DNA of 64,000 nucleotides from Malania oleifera (lineage: Eukaryota; Streptophyta; Magnoliopsida; Santalales; Ximeniaceae): contig NC_080422.1 of NCBI RefSeq assembly GCF_029873635.1, positions 10,943,764 to 11,007,763 of the forward strand, written 5' to 3'. The position numbers and the translations under genes are program-made. Positions 2,396 through 45,060 of this stretch are shown here, piece by piece. The number at the start of each line of letters is the position of its first letter. Within the stretch, counting starts at the first letter, position 1. The notes under the pieces were generated by a model. The model was not told the DNA's origin. It worked only from the letters and a program-made list of their open reading frames with translations, and did not search any database.

Positions 2396-2419
2396 CACTA
2401 CAAAAAAACCTAGTTTTTA

Positions 2420-2790
2420 GTAACAAAAGTATTAGTGACAGTTTGAGTTTCGTCACTAAAAGTATAGTATTGGTTATAGTTTGTGCAAACCATCACTAAT
2501 AGTGTATAATCGTCACTAATAATGCATTGTTGACTAGGCAGAAGGTCAATAATATTAGTGACGATTCTCAGAAACCGTCATTAATAGTCTATTATTAGTA
2601 ACAGTTCTTATAAACTGTCACTAATAGTCTCGTATTAATAACGGTTTATAGCACCGTTAGTAATAGTGCATTTATTGACTGAGAAAAAATTCAACAATAT
2701 TAGTAATGATTTTCAAGAACCATTACTAATAGCCTATTATTAGTGACAGTTTTATTGAACTGTCACTAATAGTCTATTATTAGTAAATCA
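2420..2790. repeat. CACTA left subterminal hairpin array
   Basis: About seven diverged copies of a short palindrome, each reading roughly attagtgacggtt-loop-aaccgtcactaat, separated by tracts such as aatgcattgttgac. Such subterminal repeats are the binding sites of the TNPA-type protein in known CACTA elements. The same hairpin caps each XS unit inside the element. Confidence 0.75.
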
Positions 2791-3460
2791 CAGTATAAAG
2801 TGTTGCATGAACACATTCGAGGGGAAAAAATATACAATAAATCAAAACACATAAATAATAAAACACAATAAAATGTACATGAACACTTGAATCGGAAAAA
2901 TAAAGAGGAATAAAAAGCTTGCAGAATATGTGATTACAGGGCAACAACTAGCATTGGTCAAGTGAACAAATTTAAGTAGCGTGCAAAATCAACAAAAAGC
3001 ACCATATCAACATCAGAGACACCTTCTGGAACCAGAAACAATCACAGTTTCAGAGAGAGAGAGACCAGATGGGCATTTGAGCTTGAGAGCAAGCTTCTGG
3101 AGATGAAGAACCCATGGGTTGAGGAAGCAAGCGTAGCTAGGAAAATCCACCATGGGGGTGAGGTTGAGATTTGGGAGGAAGAGGGAGAAGTACTCGACTA
3201 TAACCTACGTCTCATAGAATATATACCTATATCGTCAGCTTTAAAAAATCCCAAAAATTGAAAACACATCATGGCACAACCGCACAGCCTTGGAAATGCA
3301 TTTTGCGTTTTTGGGAAACGATATGATATTTTCGATGATATGATATTTTGATATTGTGTGGTCAAACTATTTTATGCATAACCCCTTTATTTTCTTTATT
3401 TATTTTTTTGTTACTTTTAATTTTTGTTTCTTACATTTAATAATTTGGTTGTATAAATAT

Positions 3461-4078
3461 GTCTGACCATGAACTAGGATTGTTCTTAACATAGTAGACG
3501 AAAAAGATGGAAGAACTATTATTGATAGTGAATATTGGTTGAAAATATTCTCTAAATTTAAACATCTTGAAGTTTATACATTTTCGAATGACCATGTACA
3601 GACCAGGGGAGCTGCATGTGGTGAAGTTCTATAACCACTGGACTAGTTTTTCAAATACTATAAAGTTTGAGAGATCTTCTAAAGTTGCTCATCACAATAA
3701 AAAGGAATGGCGTGCACAAAAAAGAAACAGCATGCTTTGTTCAAATATCTATGCATGGGTGGGTTGCTCAAGAAAATGATTACAATTCAGCAGGGCTAGT
3801 AGGCAAGGAGGCTATCTTCATAGTAGTGGACAAATAAGAAGAGTTGCTGATATTGTCTAGTAAGCAAAAACCGGATAAAAATAATGTTGTGGCTAACCTA
3901 GCTAGTGTGCAATTGACACCACATACAAATGAGAATCTGGATGAGTTGAAAATAAAATACAACGAGAAGAGCATGTCTTTATGTAGAATGCTTGAAGAGA
4001 AAGACCATCAGTAATAGTCTTATACTAGTTAGTGATGATTCTCATAAATCGTTACTAATAATGCATTTTTTGATGTGG
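3461..4078 (+). pseudogene. Captured XS-domain gene fragment, unit 1 (IDN2/FDM family)
   Basis: The first, 5'-truncated unit. It starts inside the XS domain (about 3470-3700, with FERSSKVAHHNKKEW near its end) and continues through the conserved segment that follows the domain (HGWVAHEDDYNSAGLVG-like, about 3750-3800) to the start of the coiled coil (NENLDELKIKYNEKSMSL, about 3930-3980). In FDM/IDN2 proteins the order XS domain, then WVAREDDYNS-like motif, then KYNET-like coiled coil is the same. The unit is broken by stops and frameshifts and ends in a CACTA-type hairpin at about 4013-4075. Confidence 0.7.
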
Positions 4079-4129
4079 AGAAAGGTAAAGACTATTAGTG
4101 ACAGTTTTTCTAATTACTTGGATAGTGTG

Positions 4130-4920
4130 CTTCAAATGCAATGGCCAAAAATCATTTGCAAAGACTGATTCACAAAGACCTTTAATGGAGTAACGAAAAT
4201 AACCCTCAAGTGCAATGAGCGAATGTAAACATAAAAATGACCTTGCCTTGGCAAAATATCTGGAAACTGACTTAGTTGATGAGTCAGACCAAACACCTCA
4301 CCCTGTTGAACCAACACCCATCTCTCAAACTCCAGAGCAGAATGATATATATGTCTGGCCATGGACTGAAATTGTTCTTAACATAGTGGATGAAAAAGAT
4401 GGAAGTGTTGTCATTGACGGTGAATATTGGTTGAAAAGATTCTCTAAATTTAAATCTCTTGAAGTTCATACGTTTTCGAATGACCGTGTACAAATTAGGG
4501 GAGCTGTGGTGAAGTTCTGCAATGATTGGACTGATTGTTTAAATGCAATAGAGTTTGAGAGATCTTTTGAAGTTGTTCATCATGTACAAGAAAAAGGAAT
4601 GATATGCACAAAAAATAAATAGCACGCTTTGTTAAAATATCTATGCATGCATGGGTAGGTTGCTCGTAAAGATGATTACAATTCAGTAGGGCCAGTAGGC
4701 TAAGAGGGTATTGTCGTAGCAGTGGACAGATAAAAACAGTTACTAATATTGTCCAGTAAGCAACTTGACACCACAAATGAGAACTTGGATGAGTTGAAGA
4801 TAAAATACAATGAGAAGAGCATGTTCTTAAGTAGAATGCTTGAACAGAAAGATCGTCATTAATAGTCTTATATTAGCTAGTGACAGTTCTTATAAACCGT
4901 CACTCATAATGCATTTGTTG
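4130..4920 (+). pseudogene. Captured XS-domain gene fragment, unit 2 (best preserved)
   Basis: An open frame from ATG 4215 to 4622 (135 aa) covers the segment before the XS domain (LALAKYLETDL, matching the ALAKYLE-DL motif just upstream of XS in plant IDN2/FDM proteins) and most of the XS domain itself: DIYVWPWTEIVLNI, then VVKFCNDWTDCLNAIEFERSFEVVHH. XS domains of SGS3 and IDN2 bind double-stranded RNA with 5' overhangs. After a break the reading continues through WVGCS..DDYNS and the KYNEKSM coiled-coil start (about 4640-4855). It ends with the hairpin repeat at 4861-4920. The fragment lacks the zf-XS N-terminus and the XH domain. Whether this ORF is transcribed cannot be seen; it has no own promoter that I recognise. 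Confidence 0.75.
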
Positions 4921-5700
4921 ACAAGGATAAGGTCAAGAATGATTCACAAAAACTTCTAATGGAGCAACAAAAATGGCCATCAAGTGCTATTAGCGAACAC
5001 AAACACAAAAATGAACTTGTCTGGGCAAAATACCTATAAACTGACCAAGCTGGTGAGTCGGGCCAAACACCTTGCCCTGCTGAACCAGCACCCATCTCTC
5101 AAAATCCAAAGCGGAATGATATATATGTCTTGCCATGGACTAAGATTGTTCTTAACATAGTGGATGGAAAAGATGGAAGAGCTGTCATTGATAGTGAATA
5201 TTGGTTAAAAGATTCTCTAAATTTAAACCTCTTGAAGTTCAAACCTTTTTGAATGACCGTGTACAGATCAATGGAGCAGTGGTGAATTTCTGCAATGATT
5301 GGACTGATTTTTTAAATGCAATAGAGTTTGAGAGATATTTTGAAAATGTTCATCACTTATAGAAAAAAAAAAAAGGAATGGGATGCATGAAAAAAAAAAC
5401 AACACCCTTTATTCAAATATCTATGCATGCATGGGTGGGTTGCTCATGAAGATGATTACAATTCAACTGGGCTAATAGGCTAAGAGGCTATCTACATAGC
5501 AGTGTACAGATAAAAATAGTTGCTGATATTGTACAGTAAGCAACTTGATACCACAAATGAGAATTTGGATGAGTTGAAGATAAAATACAATGAGAAGAGC
5601 ATGTCCTTAAGCAGAATGCTTGAAAAGAAAGACCGTCTCTAATAGTCTTATATTAGCTAGTAATGGTTCTCATAAACCATCACTAATAATGCATTTGTTG
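4921..5700 (+). pseudogene. Captured XS-domain gene fragment, unit 3
   Basis: Repeats unit 2 at a spacing of 780 bp between equivalent hairpin positions (4861 and 5641). It contains the pre-XS segment (about 4940-5090), the XS domain (about 5120-5350, with FCNDWTDFLNAIEFER), the HAWVAHEDDYNSTG-like motif (about 5420-5480) and the KYNEKSMSL coiled-coil start (about 5580-5625). It is interrupted by frameshifts and stops and by expanded A tracts at about 5360-5400. It ends with a hairpin whose arms GGTTCTCATAAACC lie at about 5663-5690. Confidence 0.7.
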
Positions 5701-6350
5701 ATATGGGGAAAGGTCAAGAGTCATTCACAAAAACTTATAATGGAGCAACTAAAATGACTATCAAGTGCAATTAGTGAACACAAACATAAAAATGACCTTG
5801 CCTTGGAAAAATACCTGGGAATTGACCTAGCTGATGAGTCGGGCCAAAAATCTTGCACTGTTGAACCAATATCCATCTCTCAAACTCCATAACAAAATGA
5901 TCTATATGTCTGACCATGGATTGGGATTGTTTTTAACATAGTAGACGAAAAAGATGGAAAAGCTATGGAGCCGTGGTGAAGTTCTGCAATGATCGGACTC
6001 ATTTTTAAATGCAATTGATCGAGTTTGAGAGATCAATCTTCTAAAGATGCTCATCATAGTAAAAAGGAATGAGATGCACGAAAGAAACAACTTGGTTCAA
6101 ATATCTATGCATGAGTGGTTTGCTTGTGAAGATATTGTTCATAAAGCAAAACAAGATAGAAAATAATGTTTTGGCTAACCTAGCCAGTCTGCCTGACACC
6201 ACAAATGAGAATCTAGATGAGTTGAAGATAAAATACAATGAGAAGAGCGTGTCCTTAAGTAGAATGATTGAAAAGAAAGAACCTCACTAATAGTCTTATA
6301 TTAGGTTCTGATGGTTCTCATAAACCATTATTAACAATGCATTTGTTGAT
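5701..6350 (+). pseudogene. Captured XS-domain gene fragment, unit 4 (internally deleted)
   Basis: The last unit is about 130 bp shorter than unit 3 (648 bp between hairpins). The deletion removes the middle of the XS domain near 5960. The pre-XS LALEKYLGIDLADESG-like segment (about 5790-5840), the end of XS and the KYNEKSVSLSRM coiled-coil start (about 6230-6270) remain. It is capped by the same hairpin at about 6289-6345. Confidence 0.65.
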
Positions 6351-6777
6351 GGGGAAAAAGCTCAAGAGATTACCAAGTACAAAGGCCTCGTCTCTACGCA
6401 GTCTCACTCAAAAGAAATTAACCTCTTGACCTTTAAATGTCGATTAAAGATCCCCAAAGGGGTGCCCTTCATGGTGGTATGATTCGAGCAAATATAGAAG
6501 ATTTGTCTCAATTCAATTGTTAAACACTTGAATCAATTTAGTAGATGCGCACACTTCCACTTGCATTTTCGCAAAATTTGAATAGAATTAATCATCATTC
6601 AAAGTAGATATATGCAACTTTTAAGAGCAGAGAATTGTTGTTCCATGAATACCCCCACCTCTCTCTCTCTCTCTCTCTCCCTCTCTCTAGTTTTTTGGTA
6701 ATAGATAATTACACAAATGCATTCACCCAAATGCACAAAATATGACAAATATAAATATGAAAAATTTAGGTACAATA

Positions 6778-6975
6778 TTAGTAACGGTTTAGAGAAATCG
6801 TCACTAATAGTCCATTATTAGTGATGGTTTAGAGGTCTCGTCACTAATAGTCCATTATTAGTAAAAATTTAGAGGAACTGTCACTAATATTACATTATTA
6901 ATGATGGTTTAGAGAAACCATCACTAATAGACTAATACGTTACTTTTAGTGACGGTTTGAAACTGTCTCTAATAC
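6778..6975. repeat. CACTA right subterminal hairpin array
   Basis: Five or so palindromes of the type attagtgatggtttagagaaaccatcactaatag. The outermost part is a reverse-complement match to positions 2420-2465 at the left end, which orients this as the right end of the same element. Confidence 0.7.
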
Positions 6976-7010
6976 TCTAAAATGTCAAAACCTTAACCCT
7001 GCGTAGATCT

Positions 7011-7606
7011 CCCGCAATTTTTTCCCCATTCATTCTCTCCTCTTCCCTCCTCCTCCTTACATGCCATTCTTCCCTACTCCCACCACACCACCATTCTTCC
7101 CTCTTTTCTTCTTGCCGCCATCTTTGGATTTTCCCACCGCCACCGCTGCTGCGGTCTTTAGCTCCTCCCACTGCTGCCATCACCACTAAGCGAACCTCCT
7201 TCCATGTGCTTCTTCTTCTGCAAATCCTAGGTGTACCTGAGCTGATGTAGTGTGTGTGTGTGTGTGTTCTCATCCATTGTTGTCTATTCTGCTGTGTTAT
7301 TGTCTTGTAAGAACTAAAATTTGTAGCAAGTTAATTATAATTTGTTGGTTTGGAATGTAATTGTTTGAAAAAGAATGAATATATTTGTTTGGGAGATTGG
7401 GATCAAATTTTTAGTTGTGTTTTGGGAAGCATTGATTGCTGTATTTGATGGGTGTCTCATTGAAACCTTGAACTATTTTGATTATGATTTTGATTTCAAA
7501 TGTAAGTATTATTACCCTATATTTGGAAGGATGAACTTTGAATCTTTATTTTAGATTTGAGTGGATTTAGCAAATTTTAATATAATTTTATGTTACATTT
7601 TTTTAG
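7011..7606. other. Unassigned segment between CACTA and copia tail; UTR-like and intron-like
   Basis: 7011-7300 is C/T-rich and resembles a plant 5' UTR, with a (TG)n tract at about 7249-7266. 7307-7606 begins GTAAGA, is T-rich and ends in TTTTTTTAG, as an intron would. No protein I recognise is encoded. It could be a gene fragment carried by a transposon or filler DNA. Confidence 0.3.
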
Positions 7607-8404: not shown

Positions 8405-11400
8405 AACCATGAAGACGTCCTCCCAAATTCGATCACATAGAAATGCATTATTAATGTCCAGTTGTCAAAGAGACCAATTTTTCTAAATAGCAATGGAGAG
8501 GACATCTGAAATAGTCACTAGCTTCACAACAGGGTTAAACGTCTCATTATAATCAAAACCATGCCATTGATGAAAACCTTGGGCCACCAACCTTGCTTTA
8601 TAGCAAGAAATACTACCATCAGGATTCTGTTTGATTTGAAAAATCCATTTGCATCCAACGGTTTTGATGGTTGAGCTTGGTGGAACAAGCTCCCATGTGC
8701 CATGTTTAACCAAAGCAGTGAACTCCTCTGTTATAACATGCCCCCACTTGGGATCCTTCAAGGCCTGAGACACACATGTGGGCTCTATAGGTTGAGGAAG
8801 AGGATGTTTTGTGGCTAGGTAAAGCTATTTGGGTTTATGAATATTTTTGATAGACTGGGTTGTCATGATATGGGTACAGATGGGCTGAGTTGGAGCTACA
8901 GGCCGATGTGGTGGGTGGAGTTATTTCTGCTGGTCGAGATTGTGCAAGGGGAGAAGATGACTAGGAAAATGGAGTCAGAGATGTAGGAGCATTGTCCATC
9001 ACAGTGGCAGGAGAGGAGGGTATCAGTCCAATGAAAGGCACCGTTGGTATGGCAAGATCTTGTGTGCTAGCACCTGAAGTTGATAGAGAGGGCACATTGA
9101 CATGGACAGAGTAAGAAAAAGGGAAAATACACTCATCAAATATCATATGTTGAGACAAGTAGATGCGAGATGTATCAAAGTCCATACACTTATAGGCACT
9201 TTGTAAGCTTGAGTAACCTAGGAAGAGACAAGGCGTTGATTTCAATTGTAGTTTACTTGTGGTATAAGCTTTTAGCCATGGGTAACACTAACAACCAACA
9301 ATTTATAACTTCTTGTAATCGAGTAGGTGACCAAATAAACACTCGAATGGACTTTTATTTTTTAAAATAGTAATGGACATACAATTAATTAAATAAATCG
9401 CGGCCTGAAACGCATAAGACCAATAAGTTGGAGAAAGACTCGCTTGACTCAATAGAGTTAGGGATGTCTCAACAATGTGATGATGTTGACATTCACTTGA
9501 ACCATTGTGTGGAGGTGTATGAGGAGCGGTGGTTAGCCAACTAATGGAATTTGAATATTGTTGAAGAGTATGATATCCCCCCCCCCCCCAAAATTATTAG
9601 AGTATAAGTGCTTGGTTTGAAAACCAATTTTTTTTTTAATTAGCCATTTTAACTGACAGAAAATGGAGTGAACATCACTTTTCAACGAATTGGAAATAGC
9701 CAACAATACTTAGTAAAATGATCGAAAAATAATGCATAAAAATGAATCCCATCAATGGGAGTGGAAGATGTAGGCCCCCTAATATCTATATAGATATATT
9801 TAAGAGGATGAGTACTAATAAGAGAAGTGGAAGAAAAAGAAAATTTATGACTTTTATTGCACTGACAAGCAGTACAAAAAGATGTTAAAGAGGTACGAGA
9901 CACTACAATTGAAAGAGAAAATCGACGAATAATGAAATCAACAATTTTATTCGATAGATGCCCAAGTTATCTATGCCAAGTGTCAGATGTTGTTCGTTCA
10001 ACAACGAATGCTAAAATTGAAGACTTGGTAGCAGAAGAAGCCATTAGCATTGGATAGACACCATCTTGACATTTACCACAAAGAAGAGTCATCCAGTGCT
10101 CCAATCCTTCACAAGAAAATGAAATGGGTGAAACTCGAGATAAACATTATTGGAACGAGTGAAATTATGAATAAAGATCAAGTTCTTGTGAATATTAGGA
10201 ACACAAAGAGTATTGGTTAATGTAAAGAGCTTTGAGGAAGAGGGCAGAGTCATAGTGCCAACATATATAACTCGCAAATTTGAGCCATCGCCTATGACGA
10301 CCTAATACGTGCCATTATACTCTGAGTGAATAAATAAATTAGCAAGATTAGAGGTAATATTGTGGGAAGCAGCTGAATCCACAAGGCACTTCTTGTTGTT
10401 AGATCTGCTAGTAGTGGCACAATTTACACACTTCTCTCCAAAACTGAGCGACAAGTCTTGGCTGAGTGTCCCACTTTGTCACATAGTTGGCAAACAATTT
10501 GGGGCTTACCTGACTGCTCTGTGCGATCATAGTGACTAGAGTTGGTGCTATTTTGACCAGAGGAACTGGTGCTAGAGTGTCGGTTTTGGTTGGATTTGGA
10601 AGCGGTAGTGCGGCGCTGAGTGGTATTTACAATAGCAACTAGGGCAGAGTTCGAAGCTTCAATACGTTTCAAGCAGCTTTCGTGGCCAACCAACATGTCA
10701 TGAAGCTCTTCAAACGTAAAAGAAGTCTCACGTGCCTAAATATATAGGTGTTGTAATATGATAGAATTCAGGACCGAGGCCGTTGAGGACATAAATAGTG
10801 AAGTCAACCACTAATATGGGAGAGTCAATCACCGCAAGTTCATCAATAAGAACCTTGATGGCGTGGAGATACTCCAAGATTGGGCAGGACTCTAGCCGAA
10901 TGAGAGTCAACTCCTTCTTAAGCTGCATAACACGAGTACGTGAATGATTGACATACAATCGTTGCAACTTAGACCATGCATTATGAGCAGTGGATGAAGT
11001 TGCAATGAGTGGCATCCTTGGTTCGAAGATAGATGCAAGGATGGCGTGAAAGATCTGCTTATCTTGCCTGAACCAATGCCAGAAGGGCAGATTGGGGACA
11101 TCTGTAGAAGACGATCTGGAAAAGGAGGTGCTGCTGGGAGCGTCAATGATAGACCAACAATGGTATCGTCATGATAGCCCTAGAGATCGTAGCCAATAAG
11201 CAAGGACGTTAGTTGGGCGTGCCATGAAGGAAAGTTGGAAAGGGTCAGATTCAAAGGAAGCTAGGAGCCGACATTGATGGCAACAAGATGAGTGTCACCA
11301 TTGCCAGTAAGCTCAGAATTATTGACAATCATAGACCTAGGGGATGCGGCCATGAGGAAAAAAGAAAAGAAAAGAAAAACTCGTCAGAAGAACGTGCTCT

Positions 11401-15125: not shown

Positions 15126-15211
15126 TTTATTGCAACGAGCGAGAAGGGAGCAAACGACCACCAGAGCGCCCGTCGCCGCCGCCGCGTCGTCATCATCGCC
15201 CTGTCGCCACC

Positions 15212-15221
15212 ATGGTCTCTT

Positions 15222-15261
<40 letters not shown>

Positions 15262-18247
15262 TCAAACGAGTCTTTGAATTTTTTTTTTTTTTTAGTTGCT
15301 GTTATTCATACTCACCTCTTCCATTTTGGTCTTTCAGATTATTCCGGAGAAGAACCGCAGAGAGATCTCCAAGTACCTTTTCAAAGGTATCTCTTTCTCC
15401 CCAATCCTCTCTCTCTCTCTGGATTTTTTGATTGGTAATTTTGATCCATTTGGGCATTACACTCTTTTCAGAGGGAGTTTGCTATGCGAAGAAGGACTAC
15501 AATCTCGCTGAACACCCAGAAATTCATGTGCCTAACCTGCATGTGATCAAGTTGATGCAGAGCTTCAAGTCTAAGGAATATGTGCGCGAGACCTTTGCTT
15601 GGATGCACTACTACTGGTTCCTCACCAATGACGGTATCGAGTTCCTCCGTACCTACCTCAATCTCCCTTCCGAGATCGTTCCTGCCACTTTGATGAAGTC
15701 CGCCAAGCCCCCTGGTCGCCCCGTGGGTGGTCCCCCAGGCCCCCGGTAATCGTTTTTGGTTATTATTTTGACTTCTTGCATTGGGATTATCTAATTGGAT
15801 AAATTACTAATTGAAGCATCGCTCCATTGTACTTCGATTGTGTTTGGAATGCTGAATCGATTCAATCGTTAATATTTGTATTTTCTTTTGGAAAATGGGA
15901 ATCAGTGGCCCTCCTCGCTTTGATGGAGATCGACCGAGGTTTGGTGACCGGGACGGGTACCGTGGCGGTCCACGAGGAGCTCCGGGTGAGTTCGGCGACA
16001 AAGGTGGAGCTCCTGCAGACTACCAGCCTTCTTTTAGGGTAATTTAGCTGCTTCATGTTGGCATGTTATGATTTTGCTCAGTAGCTTGAGATAGAACCTA
16101 ATTGGGTTGTTTGATTGCAGTTTGCATTTTTTGTTCAATGTGATGCCTATAACTTTACATATCCTAACCCAGGACAGTACTATTGACTTCTATTACTCTG
16201 CATCATCAATTCTTCATAGTTGCAGTTTAGGCTCAAGTAACTAAGGGGATTTTTGGTATTACTATAAAAAAAATTGTGAAAGCAAAAATCAGAAACGAAA
16301 CTGAAAACTACGAACAGAGCAAAAACTAAAAATTAAAAACCAGCATTCTATTTTATCAATATTCATAAAAAGTGAAAGAATTTATAAAACTTAAACAAAT
16401 GCTCAGTTTTGTTCATGAATCGAAGAACACTAAAAAATATGATTAGAATAATAAAAATTAAAATATTATAATACAAATAAAATTATTGCAATTATTTATC
16501 TTCTTTATATATTTCAAAATTCACTTTAGAAGATCGATTGTAATTGTACAAGACAATTAAAATATAGTAAAAAAAATTATTTTGTAATTTTTTTATTTTT
16601 TAATTATTTTTAATTTTTTTTGGACATTGTTATTTTTAATTATATTTTAAATTTATGTTATCATGTTATTGTAATTTAGTTAAACCCAGTGTGTATAAAA
16701 TTAGTGACTTAATCCAAAAAATTAATTATGGTTATTAAATAATCTGTCAACAGTTGCTAAAGCTATTTTTTCCGTAAACAAATAAGTTTTCATAATCTAT
16801 TTCTTCACTATACAGAAACAATACTGAGCATGCCTCAATATTTTTTATGCTAATATGCACTAATCATGAACACATTTTTTGTACAATGAATAATTCTATT
16901 ATATTTAAATTATCTTTACTCTCTGTAAACATAAAAAAATTTCTGCATTTTAAGTTAAGTGCAAAACAACAACAATTCGTTAAAACTCCAACAGGTGGGA
17001 TCAGCTATGTGAATCTGCCTCCTTGTTTTTAGAATCACCACCTAGTTTAAATATGTAACCTCAGAAAAATGTTTCTTTTTAAAATTTGGCTGGTAATTCT
17101 GGACTAATTTGGGGTTTATAATTTAGCCAGAGTCCATAATTTTATGTTCCCAAAACCATAGCCCTGTTGGATTTTATTAGCTAATCAGTTAATGTGAAAA
17201 TGACATTCTTTGGAAAATGGCACCTATGTTATGTTTTACTGTGAGAGATATGCTGAATGTTGGCCGTTATAGACTGAATTCCTGTTACACAATAAGAGGC
17301 TGATAGTAATTAAACAAAGGAAATAAATTATTATCTATGGATAAAGATAAAAATGTTTGATATTGGCCTTTCCCTTTTCTAGACTGAAGTTCTGTTATAC
17401 CAACAGGGACAGATGGTAATTAAACCTCTTCTTAGCAAGTTTATTGGGTATTAGTTGAGGCTAACAATACTTTTCAACATTCTGAAATTTTTTGTGCCTT
17501 ATGTTTGTGATATGTGTGCAAAATTATGCTCAGCTTTATGAGAATTTGGATTTTTTTTTCAAATCATCTTCTCACTGTCATTTCAATTCTGCTGTATATG
17601 TACTGGGTGGCGCTGTGCTGTAGTATAAATAACAATCAATAGTATCCTTTTGAGTGCACATCAATCTTTAGTAGCATAATCCTTTGTTACCCTGGATAGT
17701 AAGGCTTTATAGTACATTGTCACATTCTGTTCTTTAAGCGCATTGAATGAATAGAATTTCATTCTTTACTAAATGAAGTAGTGAGCAAGGATTTAATAGC
17801 TCGTAAGTTAGAGGAAAATGTTTTTGATCAGATGAATTGTCATAAAAGAATTCATGTAACTGACCCCTCTCTTAGCGGGACTTGAGGCTTGTTGATATTA
17901 TTTTTGTTATTGAATGAATAGCGTGTAAACATACCTTTTTGTGGGTGAGTTTGTCTTTCGTAATTTTTATGCTTGATCTACTGTATCAGAGATTGAAACC
18001 TAAAAAGTTCAGGTCAGAATAACAGATTGATATGGTTTAAATCTCGAAGTTGAACATATGCGTTTACTGAATGAGATTTCCTTTTTTCTTTTGCTTGGAT
18101 ACTGGTTATTCCACAGATATCTGTAATTTCTATTAAGGGTATATTCACTAATTCACTTTGCTACCAAATCTTCAGGGTTCAAGGCCTGGCTTTGGTCGTG
18201 GAAGTGGCAGTTATGGTGCTGGTCCAACCAGCTCAAATCTTCCTTGA
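15212..18247 (+). CDS. RPS10: 40S ribosomal protein S10 (eS10), 5 coding exons
   Basis: Exons: 15212-15214 (the ATG alone), 15338-15386, 15472-15745, 15906-16038, 18176-18247, all with GT-AG introns; 531 nt, 176 aa. The protein starts [17 protein letters not shown] and carries the S10/plectin domain in about residues 3-95 ([18 protein letters not shown], then [12 protein letters not shown]). The R/G-rich tail (residues about 100-176; [14 protein letters not shown], then RPGFGRGSG) is typical of plant eS10. Length matches the family (about 177-180 aa). It sits in the small ribosomal subunit near the mRNA entry channel. Intron 1 splits the gene immediately after the start codon and holds a (TC)n(CA)n tract (15222-15260). 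Intron 4 is 2.1 kb and contains an A+T-rich insertion-like stretch (about 16250-16740). All splice joins keep the frame, so the gene looks intact. Confidence 0.95.
16250..16740. repeat. A+T-rich repeat-like insertion in RPS10 intron 4
   Basis: The composition changes abruptly to A/T homopolymer-rich sequence (starting with aaaaaaaattgtgaaagcaaaaatcagaaacg). On the opposite strand it resembles the repeats at 19478-19640 and 28750-28900. Family not identified; a decayed MITE-like element is possible. Confidence 0.35.
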
Positions 18248-18980
18248 GAGATTTGTTTTGTTTTACCATCTTAGTTTTGGCAGTTTAGATCCCAATCCGA
18301 GCAGGATGATGATGCTCCGATAGCTCAGGATTCTCCTGATTGTGCTTCCTGCTGGATTCATGTTTAATTTTGTATTCTTCCTTTCGTTTGGGGTGAGATG
18401 GGTTTTGAGGGCGTGTTCACCTTTTACCAACTTTGGTTGTATCCAACACACAATTACGTAATTTTTCATCTGGTCTTCTCTTTTTTATATACCTTCTTAT
18501 TTCTCTGTTGCATTATGAATCCTTAGGGGCAGGCCATATTTTTTGGGCATTGCTAATATTTTTTTCTTTTACATTCTCTAGCCACTCTCAAGTTTCATCC
18601 ATACTTGTACATTTTTTAGATCGCTCAAGTTAACCAAATGCAAGCTGAGGTGACTTTAAAATCCATACCAATATGCATTTTATGTGATGAATTTTACTTT
18701 GTTTCAATGTTATTCAATATTCAATCTCCTATTATTGGCATAATGCTCCAGTTAGTCTCAAGTTCTTCTCATTCATTATAGTATTTCAGTTATTGTCTTT
18801 TTCCTAATTCCTTTATACTATGGTTAGGGATAGGATTATTGATGAATTTTCTTGTCCTTCAATGCTACAATGGATATTTGCCTATTTGGAATGGTGAGTA
18901 GGATCCCATAGGTTTTTGATGAATTAAAAATGTCTAGCATTATAGATTTGGAACGGTCCATGAAGTTAATCTTATTGTGT
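18248..18980. other. RPS10 3' UTR and downstream intergenic sequence
   Basis: T-rich sequence typical of a plant 3' UTR continues to about 18480. Beyond that I see no gene or clear repeat. Confidence 0.5.
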
Positions 18981-36484: not shown

Positions 36485-37190
36485 TCTTTGCTGTGTTGCT
36501 CTTGCCGAGCTGTTCTTTGTGGTATTTCTTGCCGAACTGTTTCTGGCGAGCTGCTCGTCATGGCATTTCTTACCGAACTGTTTTTGTTGAGTTACTCTTC
36601 GTGGCATTTCTTGCCGAACTGTTTCTGCTAAGCTGCTCTTCAGGGCATTTCTTGGCAAGCTGTTTCTGCCGAGTTACTCGTTATGGCATTTCTTGCCAAG
36701 CTGTTTCTGCCGAACTGCTCTTTGTGGCATTTCTTGCCGAACTGTTCCTGCCGAGTTGCTCATTGTGGCATTTCTTGCCGAGCTGTTCCTGCCGAGCTAC
36801 TCGTCGTGACATTTCTTGCCGAGCTACTCTTCACGGCATTTCTTATCTAGCTATTCCTGCCGAGCTGCTCTTTGCGGCATTTCTTGCCGAACTGTTCCTG
36901 TCACGCTGCTCATCGTGGCATTTCTTGCCGAACTTTTTCTGCTGAGCTGCTCGTCGCGGAATTTCTTGCCAAATGTTTCTAACGAGTTGCTCTTCATGGA
37001 ATTTCTTGCTGAGTTGCTCGTCGTGGCATTTCTTGTTGAGCTATTCTTACCGAACTGCTCATCGTGGCATTTCTTACCGAGCTATTTCTGCCGAGCAGCT
37101 CGTCGTGGCATTTCTTGCCGAACCTTTTCTGCCGTGTTGCTCGTCGTGACATTTCTTGCTAAGCTGTTTCTGCCGAACTACTCGTCGGTT
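36485..37190. repeat. Minisatellite, about 42-bp unit, about 16 copies
   Basis: Tandem units of about 42 bp built on GTGGCATTTCTTGCCGA and GCTGTTTCTGCCGAGCTGCTC, with base changes between copies. As 42 is a multiple of three, several frames stay open and give a spurious repetitive ORF (LFLPSCSLWHFLP-like). It lies in the region between pol and the 3' LTR of the gypsy element, where Tat-lineage elements are known to carry tandem repeats. Confidence 0.85.
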
Positions 37191-37580
37191 GGGTCTTCTT
37201 TGCCTAATAAGTTGTACTCATTTGTTAGGCGGTTGCGTGACCTCACGAGTTGTGCTCGTCCGTTGGGCCTTCTTTGCCTAATTAGTTGTGCTCATTTGTT
37301 GGGCAGCTGCGTGACCTCACGAGCTGTGCTTGTCAGTTGGGCCTTCTTTACCTAATGAGCTGTGCTCATTTGTTAGGCGTTCTTCTGGCATCACGAGCGG
37401 TGTTCATCAGTTGGGTCTATTCTTTTTTGCCTAATGAGTTGTGCTTATTTGTTGAGCAATTCCATGGCCTCACGAGCGGTGCTCGTCAGTTGGGTCTATT
37501 CTTCTTTGCCTAAATAGCTGTGCTTGTTTTTTAGGCAACCTTCTGGCCTCGCAAGCTGTGCTTGCCAGTTGGGTTGCTCT
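37190..37580. repeat. Second minisatellite, about 71-80-bp unit, about 5 copies
   Basis: Units begin GTTGGGCCTTCTTTGCCTAAT, with a CACGAG(C/T) block and a TGCTCATTTGTTAGGC block, starting near 37190, 37261, 37337, 37411 and 37491. Adjacent to, but unrelated in sequence to, the 42-bp array. Confidence 0.75.
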
Positions 37581-42483: not shown

Positions 42484-45060
42484 TTAGCTTGTTTGCTCCA
42501 GGCTCTGCTGGGTTGGTTCGCACCTTCCTGAGGACCAGTTCTCTTGGGTGGAATGTTCGCGCTCTAACACGAGTGTTGTAGTACCTGGCCACTTTTGTTG
42601 GTACATGACAATTCTCATATGTGCTTGTTTTTGTCTCTCCTCTAGGAGGTCTAACTTCGCCCTTAATTCTTCGCTGTTGTTCCTTTCATCAAAATGTTGC
42701 CTCCGCTGGGAAGGGATTCTGACCTTAGCTGGAATGATTGCCTCTGCTCCGAAAGTGAGCATGAATGGGGTTTCTCCTGTTGCTGCTCGTCAGGTCGTGT
42801 GGTAAGCCTAGATTATGGATGGGAGCTCTTCCACCCATCTGCCTTGTGAAGTTTCGAGCCGCGTTGCAATATTGTATGGTTCATGTTTTCTGTAGAGCCT
42901 TGAAGAATTATAGTAATTAAATAATAAAAGGAGAGAAAAAGAATTTTAAATAGGGGGTTTCAGTAGGGTCTCGTCGACGAGTGCAAAGTGCTTGTTGACA
43001 AGCAGGCCTCTTGGGCTTGTCGACGGGGACGCATGTCTCGTCGACGAGAAATTACCGAGAGGGCTGTTTTCAGGGCCTGAAACTCGTCAACGAGGGGAAG
43101 GTGTTCGTCGACGAACTCCCTTCATAGACTTGTCGACAAGGCCACGTGGACAAGCACTATATAAAAAGCCAAAAATCGTTTTTCTGCGAGAAAATTGCAT
43201 GCAGGACCGTTTCTCTCTCTAGAATTTCGTCCTCTCCTCCCTCTCTCTAGAATTCTGGCCTTGTTACACGCCGGTTCGACGATCGGAAGCCGCCACATTA
43301 CTCCTGCGAAGATTTTTTACAAATCTGTTGGAGTAATTTGTTGATTAGGCTAATTTGGGCACCATCCGAAAATCTAGGTAAGTTAGTTATTTTAGACTTT
43401 ATAAGTTATTTGGTATTGTTAGACTAGGAAAAATGCTTTAGATAGTATTATACTGAAGTTTGATTGGGAAAATGAAATTTCAGGGTGTTGAACTAAGGAA
43501 CACATAGATGTAAATTTGTAGTATTTTGTGGTCTTCTCAGTAAGTTAGGTAAGGGGATAAATTAAGTTAGTCTTTTCGTGAAATTATTTATTTTTATACA
43601 ATATTTATTTCCAGAAAAATATGTATGATTTAGAACTATGTTTGGGAATACTGCTGTTGAACAGGGAAATTATTTAAGCATGTTTTATATGAAAAAATGA
43701 TTTCAGAATTAATTATGAGTTTATAAGGTTATGTATATTTGTGTGGCATGAGTATAATATTTTCATGAAATTATGCTATATTGAAATATTATGAGTTTTC
43801 CTAGATGAGTATGTTATAGTAGTTTTCTAGAAAACCCTAAAAAAATAGTACAGGAATTATGTTTTATAGATTATGTTAAATAATGCAAGAATTTATGATT
43901 ATTACGTAATGAAATATGCTGGCATAAGCACCGTGATTTTTATGTTATGAATTATACCGGCGTAAACGCCGTGATTTTTACGTTATGAATTATGTTGGCG
44001 TAAATGCCATGATTTTACGTTATGAATTATACCGAAGAAATTGCCGTGATTTTACGTTACGAATTATGTCGGCGCTGATGCCGTGATTATTTAAAAAATC
44101 ATGAAATATGTTTATGTCAGATATTACTCTGAATTACGAAACCACTATATTTTAATATGGAATGTATTATATGTTATCAGAACTCGGATAGTTTAGTTCA
44201 ATTTTATGAAGTACGGTACCGTAGCTATATGTTTATGATTATGAATATGTTAGTGCTACCACACATCTTATGTAGAGTGTGGAGATGGCAGTCGATGTGG
44301 TTTTATGGGACTGCCGTAGTTCCCCTGGTAGACCGGCACAGGTGAAATAGGTCCATCATAATTATAGACTTATGTTTGATTTAGCATGGTCGGCCAGCCA
44401 TTGCTAGGTCCCGCCTATGGGCCGCACAACCCTGTCATGTGGGGGGTAAGACATGACGATAGCTAACTAACTATCTATTTTGGGTAATAAGTTACGTATG
44501 ATATGGTTATATGAGATGATTTCTCAGTACATAAATTTAGTATGATACGCTATGTTATGATAAACCATGTTTTATGCAATATGATACAACTGTTATACCA
44601 GTTATGAATTATGTACTATTTATATGTATACCACGAAAAATACTCATGTTGCCACACACTGATATTAATTTATCTCTTTTACTGAGAGGTGTCTCACCCC
44701 AACATTAAAAACATTTTAGGAAATCTAGGTTGGAGGGCGGATAGAGCCCCGCAGCAGTAGAAGTGGTTTGAGCTGCCCTGTATATAGGGTAAGTGGATGA
44801 GCTAGGGTTAGATGGATTTTTGAGTTGATACCCTAGGAGTACTTTTAGTATTTTGTGGATGACTGTATGTATATATATATGACAGATTCAGTAGAACTCT
44901 GGTATGGTTTCTGGTATTTATGGCATGTATATGATTTTATGTTTCCCATTCCTTAGGTATCAGAGTTTTATGACAGATATATCCTTGGTAGCCATGGGTC
45001 TAGGTTGACCATGACTATGACAGTTTAGCTGGATATTATGAATGTTATTATGTGGAAAAG

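Follow-up and report, generated by a model that had tools for sequence, protein, structure and literature searches.

A tandem array of FDM/IDN2-like exon pieces in the 5′ part of a CACTA element of Malania oleifera

The locus: a CACTA 5′ end followed by four XS units

The window, i.e. the whole 64-kb stretch of DNA that was analysed, corresponds to C6:10943764-11007763 (C6 being the contig that holds it) in a genome of 1.49 Gb. The features of the element, with unit positions aligned to the host gene L037 described below, are the following:

2396..2411, + strand: 5′ terminus of a CACTA element, starting CACTACAAAAAAACC..., the sole exact match to the 13-base terminus pattern in the window
2396..2786, + strand: 5′ terminal region with subterminal repeats of ~40 bp (AGTGACGGTT...AACCGTCACT), from repeat searches and a match across loci
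2798..3456, + strand: element-internal module of ~660 bp, with matches of about 77-87% at other loci
3457..4005, + strand: XS unit 1, host 1506-2028, 5′ truncated; 83.2% over 549 columns; PF03468 E 1.6e-8 (stop-free piece)
4006..4234, + strand: linker of 229 bp with subterminal-repeat sequence, from the linker alignment
4235..4852, + strand: XS unit 2, host 1392-2027; 80.7% over 659 columns; PF03468 E 1.1e-17
4853..5008, + strand: linker of 156 bp, the short form, in which about 75 bp are missing, from the linker alignment
5009..5633, + strand: XS unit 3, host 1392-2028; 78.7% over 667 columns; PF03468 E 2.5e-4 (stop-free piece)
5634..5789, + strand: linker of 156 bp, short form, from the linker alignment
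5790..6280, + strand: XS unit 4, host 1392-1561, 1659-1812 and 1879-2027, with two internal gaps; 86%, 81% and 88%
6281..6368, + strand: start of a further linker past unit 4, up to the end of the 175-nt repeat family
6776..6930, + strand: second block of 40-bp subterminal repeats, between the array and the downstream leader, from repeat searches
6960..7388, + strand: CT-rich leader-like region, collinear with a related locus (L034) in which transposase sequence comes further downstream

The CACTACAAAAAAA at 2396 is the sole exact occurrence of the terminus pattern on both strands of the 64 kb; another 12 matches have 2 mismatches each, giving a total of 13 against a mean of 6 in shuffled sequence. 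None of the minus-strand matches (the nearest at 15285) was judged convincing as a 3′ end of the element, and a stricter fuzzy search of the window's first 14 kb revealed no 3′ terminus. As is characteristic of CACTA elements, short subterminal repeats occur in both orientations, the 40-bp repeats at 2553-2646 and 6776-6930 having inverted matches. The module at 2798-3456 is common to related elements, where it lies upstream of the array, and some of its matches have no XS hits among those listed; it may be another captured fragment, and its portion 2980-3258 gave no Pfam match.

Four tandem units of one 637-bp stretch, made up of an XS domain and the start of a coiled coil, occupy positions 3457-6280. 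The direct repeats of the array fall into a 276-nt family of three copies, two of them at 84% and 76% to the reference, and a 175-nt family of four copies, three of them at 83-88%, which ends at 6368. The preliminary description, made from the letters alone, had recognised four repeats of the same XS-protein segment with the XS domain preceding the coiled-coil start; the direct repeats and host alignments agree with this, the order of motifs can be read directly in the frames, and the Pfam search that it proposed returned PF03468 in units 1 and 2. The score of unit 3 lies below Pfam's cut-off, and the stop-free 3′ piece of unit 4 scanned against Pfam gave no XS match. All four units carry stops or frameshifts in their reading frames, and what they hold of the FDM/IDN2 domain set is an interrupted XS domain and coiled-coil start.

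Downstream of the array, window 5967-7388 aligns with positions 6046-7571 of a related locus (C8B, L034) at 79.7% identity. The two transposase ORFs of another relative (L032) had no match anywhere in the 64 kb. Since there is neither a convincing 3′ end nor a transposase match, the window copy is taken to be a 5′ piece only, lying beside copia debris: a minus-strand gag piece (10731-11168) and an RT piece (8486-8824) are found past the element, and a copia Pol piece (547-1506) upstream of it. The CACTA context originally proposed for the array therefore holds as regards the 5′ terminus and the subterminal repeats, but the window contains only part of such an element. The window also includes a host gene for ribosomal protein S10e (15150-18250, limits set by eye; one exon matches S10_plectin, E 2.9e-35), tandem repeats with periods of 41 and 74 bp (36503-37573) and about five copies of a 38-bp tandem repeat (43896-44088).

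The units derive from one exon of an intact FDM/IDN2-like gene

The donor is one exon of an FDM/IDN2-like gene that is present intact elsewhere in this genome (L037/L066; L037 is at C6:32814758, + strand). This exon encodes zf-XS (4.5e-22) and XS (1.4e-36) domains, and the downstream exons in L066 carry XH (1.9e-20 and 1.7e-34); the exons in between encode a coiled coil, judged by eye only, so that zf-XS, XS, coiled coil and XH occur in the order found in the FDM/IDN2 family. The protein matches the solved chain 4e8u_A (title T8P19.180) with an E value of 2.6e-26, a chain that we take to be Arabidopsis IDN2. Window unit 2 and L037 share 75.6% protein identity over 131 residues. RNA-directed DNA methylation is the pathway in which IDN2/FDM proteins function (PMC3342958, PMC3935573). 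The FDM/IDN2-type origin suggested at the outset is thus supported by a located, intact parent.

A genome search with PF03468, in which the best 150 of 696 candidates were scored, gave 150 matches above the cut-off; 30 of the 150 lack an internal stop, six of these being host genes and most of the others partial. Among these matches L037 is the intact gene nearest to the units. A second FDM-like gene (L039) was rejected as the donor, being just 41.7% identical to unit 2 in amino acids. SGS3 was rejected as well: neither of two genes that read as SGS3-like (L043 and L044) matched the XS query taken from unit 2 (E 1e-3) or the DNA of the element (E 0.01).

The borders of the captured segment are sharp. 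Among 136 non-redundant hits (a set that includes the host itself and L039), 47 start at host position 1392 and 67 end at 2025-2028. Host 1392-2028 yielded 1330 first-look candidates in the genome, the best 40 of which gave 51 matches when scored; the host flanks 1100-1391 and 2032-2460 have one genomic match each, the host itself. Since the same borders recur across many loci, the family was most likely founded by a single capture, to judge from these alignments. As the segment lies within one exon, capture from DNA and capture from cDNA would look alike. An extension of the capture upstream into zf-XS was considered and rejected: the linker frame vaguely resembles a C-x2-C finger, it has no Pfam match, and linker DNA (8 linkers averaged) is no closer to the host's upstream 117 bases than shuffled sequence is. 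Capture and tandem amplification of a gene fragment, as first described, are thus attested by a host fragment inside the element with its intact parent elsewhere, by sharp borders with single-copy flanks and by units that alternate with linkers. At three places (C4:36051289-36053324, C8:47255224-47256381 and C7:62655994-62657615) there are arrays whose units have secondary, narrower borders, from about 1444 to about 1996 of the host, which perhaps reflect a second round of tandem duplication.

XS hits fall into 135 clusters of 20 kb, a lower bound drawn from the best-scored matches, in which some further host genes may be counted, for instance the open partial matches at C3:11427515, C10:19914176 and C2:42089578. 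The genome searches scored the best 40 of 1168, 150 of 696, 40 of 1330 and 40 of 2859 candidates; because only part of the candidates was scored, the copy numbers given are minimum figures, and a candidate does not count as a confirmed copy.

Arrays and CACTA ends occur together at related loci

The 5′ element region of the window (2396-3450) was used as a genome query, the best 40 of 2859 candidates being scored, and the best 46 of 158 matches to it defined 37 places. At 16 of these, the window included, an XS hit among the matches listed lies within 6 kb of the 5′ element end, the nearest hit being downstream in the direction of the element at 15 of the 16; the frequency expected by chance is about 0.0016 per place. 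The other 21 of the 37 ends have no XS hit within 6 kb among the matches listed. The XS list used here comprised 144 of the 150 profile matches (six host genes having been removed), together with 40 of 151 matches (one position per place) and the new ones (12) of a further 51.

Four related loci were followed: C8A (L031, L032, L067), C8B (L034, L068), C11 (L033, L069) and C12 (L035), with a downstream reach of about 12 kb in C11 and about 4 kb only in C12. The 5′ terminal region of the window is also present in L033 (1995-2271), L034 (2403-2679) and L035. A CACTA terminus resembling that of the window lies at L033:1623, and the aligned ends of L034 and L035 no longer start with CACTA, so an intact CACTA start was seen in two of the five loci searched (the window and C11). 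Fuzzy searches over 25, 18, 18 and 10 kb of the four related loci found no 3′ terminus, and in the loci searched no array-bearing element showed a 3′ end or a target-site duplication.

The array of C8A has eight full units and a partial ninth, and downstream of it, on the same strand, L032 contains a Transposase_21 match (E 8.6e-51). C8B (L068) has a collinear transposase copy, stop-bearing, likewise downstream and on the same strand. Transposase was not found in the stretches of C11 (about 12 kb) and C12 (about 4 kb) that were covered, so the order array, then transposase, was seen at two of the four related loci. The lack of a transposase that marks Pack-type elements holds for the window fragment, while two relatives carry transposase sequence. 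This transposase family is very large (2315 and 2422 candidates in two genome searches), and only 4 of the best 150 and 1 of the best 40 matches have an XS hit among those listed at a distance of up to 25 kb, each count including the query's own locus. With so few of the best transposase matches near XS hits, the array-bearing elements look like a minority subfamily.

Blocks of subterminal repeats flank the units, which occupy the 5′ part of the element. The further genomic copies that the preliminary description proposed to look for are present, and of the two observations that would have spoken against it, a lack of XS hits or an array outside CACTA sequence at a normal host locus, neither was made.

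Arrays moved as arrays and also grew in place

The linkers are about 230 or about 156 bp long, the short form lacking the same ~75 bp at several loci. In the 43 linkers extracted (of 47 listed), the core of the subterminal repeats, allowing up to 2 substitutions, was present in all 43, compared with 14 of 43 after shuffling. The whole array of C8B could be aligned unbroken with that of C11 (3049 columns, 84.7%), and window 3402-5508 with C8B (2113 columns, 84.1%), from which it follows that arrays moved as arrays.

A tree was built from 58 units, namely those hits at the retrieved loci that span 480 bp or more of the host segment; shorter hits, window unit 4 among them, were left out. Window unit 1 grouped with the first long units of C10 and C8B (91 and 90), and window unit 3 with the second long units of C11 and C8B (99 and 96); the first unit of C11 fell outside the unit 1 group. 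Seven C8A units formed a clade of their own (support 100), so local amplification also occurred. The internal branches are short, many of them weakly supported, and the host lies inside the radiation, which suggests that capture and burst were close in time.

A methylation footprint over the whole element

When the units were compared with their column majority, C>T changes amounted to 228/777 at CG (0.293), 737/2953 at CHG (0.250) and 789/10298 at CHH sites (0.077), against 387/20429 (0.019) for A/T transitions. The linkers gave 173/581 at CG, 69/334 at CHG and 239/2635 at CHH, with 87/5360 A/T transitions. Since the linkers show the same C>T footprint as the XS part, the methylation that this pattern records is element-wide.

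Small RNAs and the host gene

Identity between the units and their parent raises the possibility that the arrays act through small RNAs, transcribed methylated units or an inverted copy feeding siRNAs that hit the parental FDM gene. If so, silencing the transposon would cost the host part of its silencing machinery. Exact 21-mers from the 58 units cover 567 of the 637 host bases, each of the 58 sharing at least one; for the three window units tested the numbers shared are 28, 51 and 46. In a review (PMC13317346), captured sequences are described as siRNA reservoirs and camouflage. A locus outside the window, L070 (C8:37391601-37393300), bears opposed XS copies, the arms being at 80% over 327 and 73% over 331 columns; the folding of its RNA (50-950) has a z of -14.7, none of 20 shuffles being as good. 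The exact 21-mers that L070 and the host have in common number 50 for one strand and 6 for the other. Raw material for siRNAs thus exists, and the identity at this level would make matching to the host gene possible.

Several results argue against an effect on the host. The window array is a direct repeat, and the RNA of its unit 2 plus linker gives no sign of hairpin formation (z +0.75, with 15 of 20 shuffles folding as well). L070 is the sole inverted pair noticed; the 136-hit set, of which it is not a member, contains no other. The footprint being the same in linkers as in units speaks for methylation of the element as a whole. In the host segment, the observed/expected ratios of CG (0.34, against 0.11-0.75 in the gene's other exon pieces) and CHG (1.15, against 0.92-1.55) show no depletion, in a comparison of low power with pieces chosen by eye; trans-methylation of the host exon was rejected on these grounds, with the same low power. 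Transitions between the majority sequence of the transposon and that of the host are skewed towards C>T on the host side, with a polarity that is unreliable when set via L039 (third-position divergence 0.45). Taken together, these data make an action of the arrays through small RNAs unlikely. A historical variant, in which siRNAs directed at the multiplied FDM pieces, with inverted copies like L070 contributing, lowered host FDM, so that strong silencing of the element undermined the pathway itself and let the burst happen, appears somewhat less likely still.

Decay of the coding sequence

The preliminary description had also raised the idea that a truncated XS protein might compete with the host's. 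In this scheme the truncated product of the element would be a rival of FDM/IDN2 for double-stranded RNA or for partners, in the manner of VANC, the anti-silencing factor of VANDAL elements. The column majority has no stop and its pN/pS against the host is 0.19, which indicates that the founder was open, and at C7:62657200, outside the intact host genes, there is a near-complete XS match without an internal stop (profile 2-106, in a 135-aa frame). This last unit nevertheless fails the open-frame test across the whole segment. Every one of the 58 units carries a stop, a frameshifting deletion or both (only deletions entered the frameshift count), and just one lacks a stop; an in-frame fusion protein across units is rejected for the same reason, stops or frameshifts affecting all 58. 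From the majority to the units, pN/pS is 0.85, slightly below 1, and in pairs of units divergence is about equal at the three codon positions, slightly lower at the third. The low ratio between majority and host is what would be expected if only the host branch were under constraint. The units would hence have drifted near-neutrally, which makes a present protein role unlikely, and the competing protein of the preliminary description is very improbable.

That the array is a satellite or a decayed cluster of host genes into which CACTA sequence was later inserted is equally improbable: tandem arrays with a common period and the many element ends lacking a nearby XS hit might suggest it, but element-type sequence is present in every linker extracted (five were compared directly with the 5′ end), the 5′ end region adjoins arrays at many loci, and the neighbouring parts of the host exon are single copy.

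A proposed history of the array

We consider it highly probable that a CACTA element captured an FDM/IDN2-like exon piece, amplified it and spread it, that the copies were methylated and decayed, and that the array in the window is a dead passenger fragment. The element would have captured, most likely once, the 637-bp internal piece of the exon, which would have landed among the 5′ subterminal repeats, on the upstream side of the transposase gene. The flanking repeats could then have undergone misaligned exchange or gap repair that copied the gene piece and linker as a unit, giving rise to arrays; subterminal repeats on both sides of the piece would account for the two having been duplicated together. 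The units and linkers are observed, and the recombination step that made the tandem copies we infer from them. Transposition would subsequently have spread arrays of several units, some of which lengthened in place, the host would have methylated the elements, and the copies would have decayed almost neutrally. One such element would have left the window array behind as a dead 5′ fragment, a passenger that has no protein function at present.

Significance and comparison with known systems

Models of transposon-host conflict predict that elements should be either protected or exposed, via shared siRNAs, by the pieces of important genes that they have captured. Here the family of the captured gene acts in a DNA methylation pathway, the piece is amplified, the parent is known and intact, and there is one hairpin candidate, which makes the shared-siRNA idea directly testable in a single plant. 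The copies tested, broken and scarred by methylation as they are, amount to a natural experiment on the effect that captured silencing genes may have on silencing. Mu killer is a system of the inverted-duplication type, and the inverted XS pair at L070 resembles it in that it could give rise to a long hairpin RNA. The VANDAL anti-silencing elements and KIU-carrying Vandals, as presented in PMC13317346, are a transposon family tied to interference with silencing; those elements encode a protein, whereas none of the 58 units tested here is open.

Gene-capturing CACTA elements are comparable as well. Gene-fragment capture is described for Tgm-Express of soybean (PMC1947982), for the gene-fragment-bearing Pack-CACTA elements (PMC13317346) and for Chenopodium CACTA elements, in which captured fragments (AP2, Neprosin) occupy the 5′ region ahead of ORF 1 (PMC8978399); all have a piece of host exon inside a CACTA element, and the Chenopodium position corresponds to that seen here upstream of the transposase. 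The CACTA satellite arrays of Chenopodium quinoa, in the section of PMC8978399 that deals with them, are also tandem arrays inside an element, but they consist of a 171-bp satellite monomer on the 3′ side, while here coding sequence is repeated on the 5′ side. The present case differs from the gene-capturing systems in that the donor is, by family, a gene of RNA-directed DNA methylation, in that the piece is tandemly amplified together with subterminal repeats in over a hundred clusters, and in that two related loci also carry transposase sequence. Full-text searches of open-licence PubMed Central showed, among the papers listed, no report of an XS-domain gene captured by a CACTA element. Capture of gene fragments by CACTA elements is known; a donor from a silencing family, a spread over some 135 clusters of 20 kb in one genome among the matches listed, and tandem amplification with subterminal repeats are unusual.
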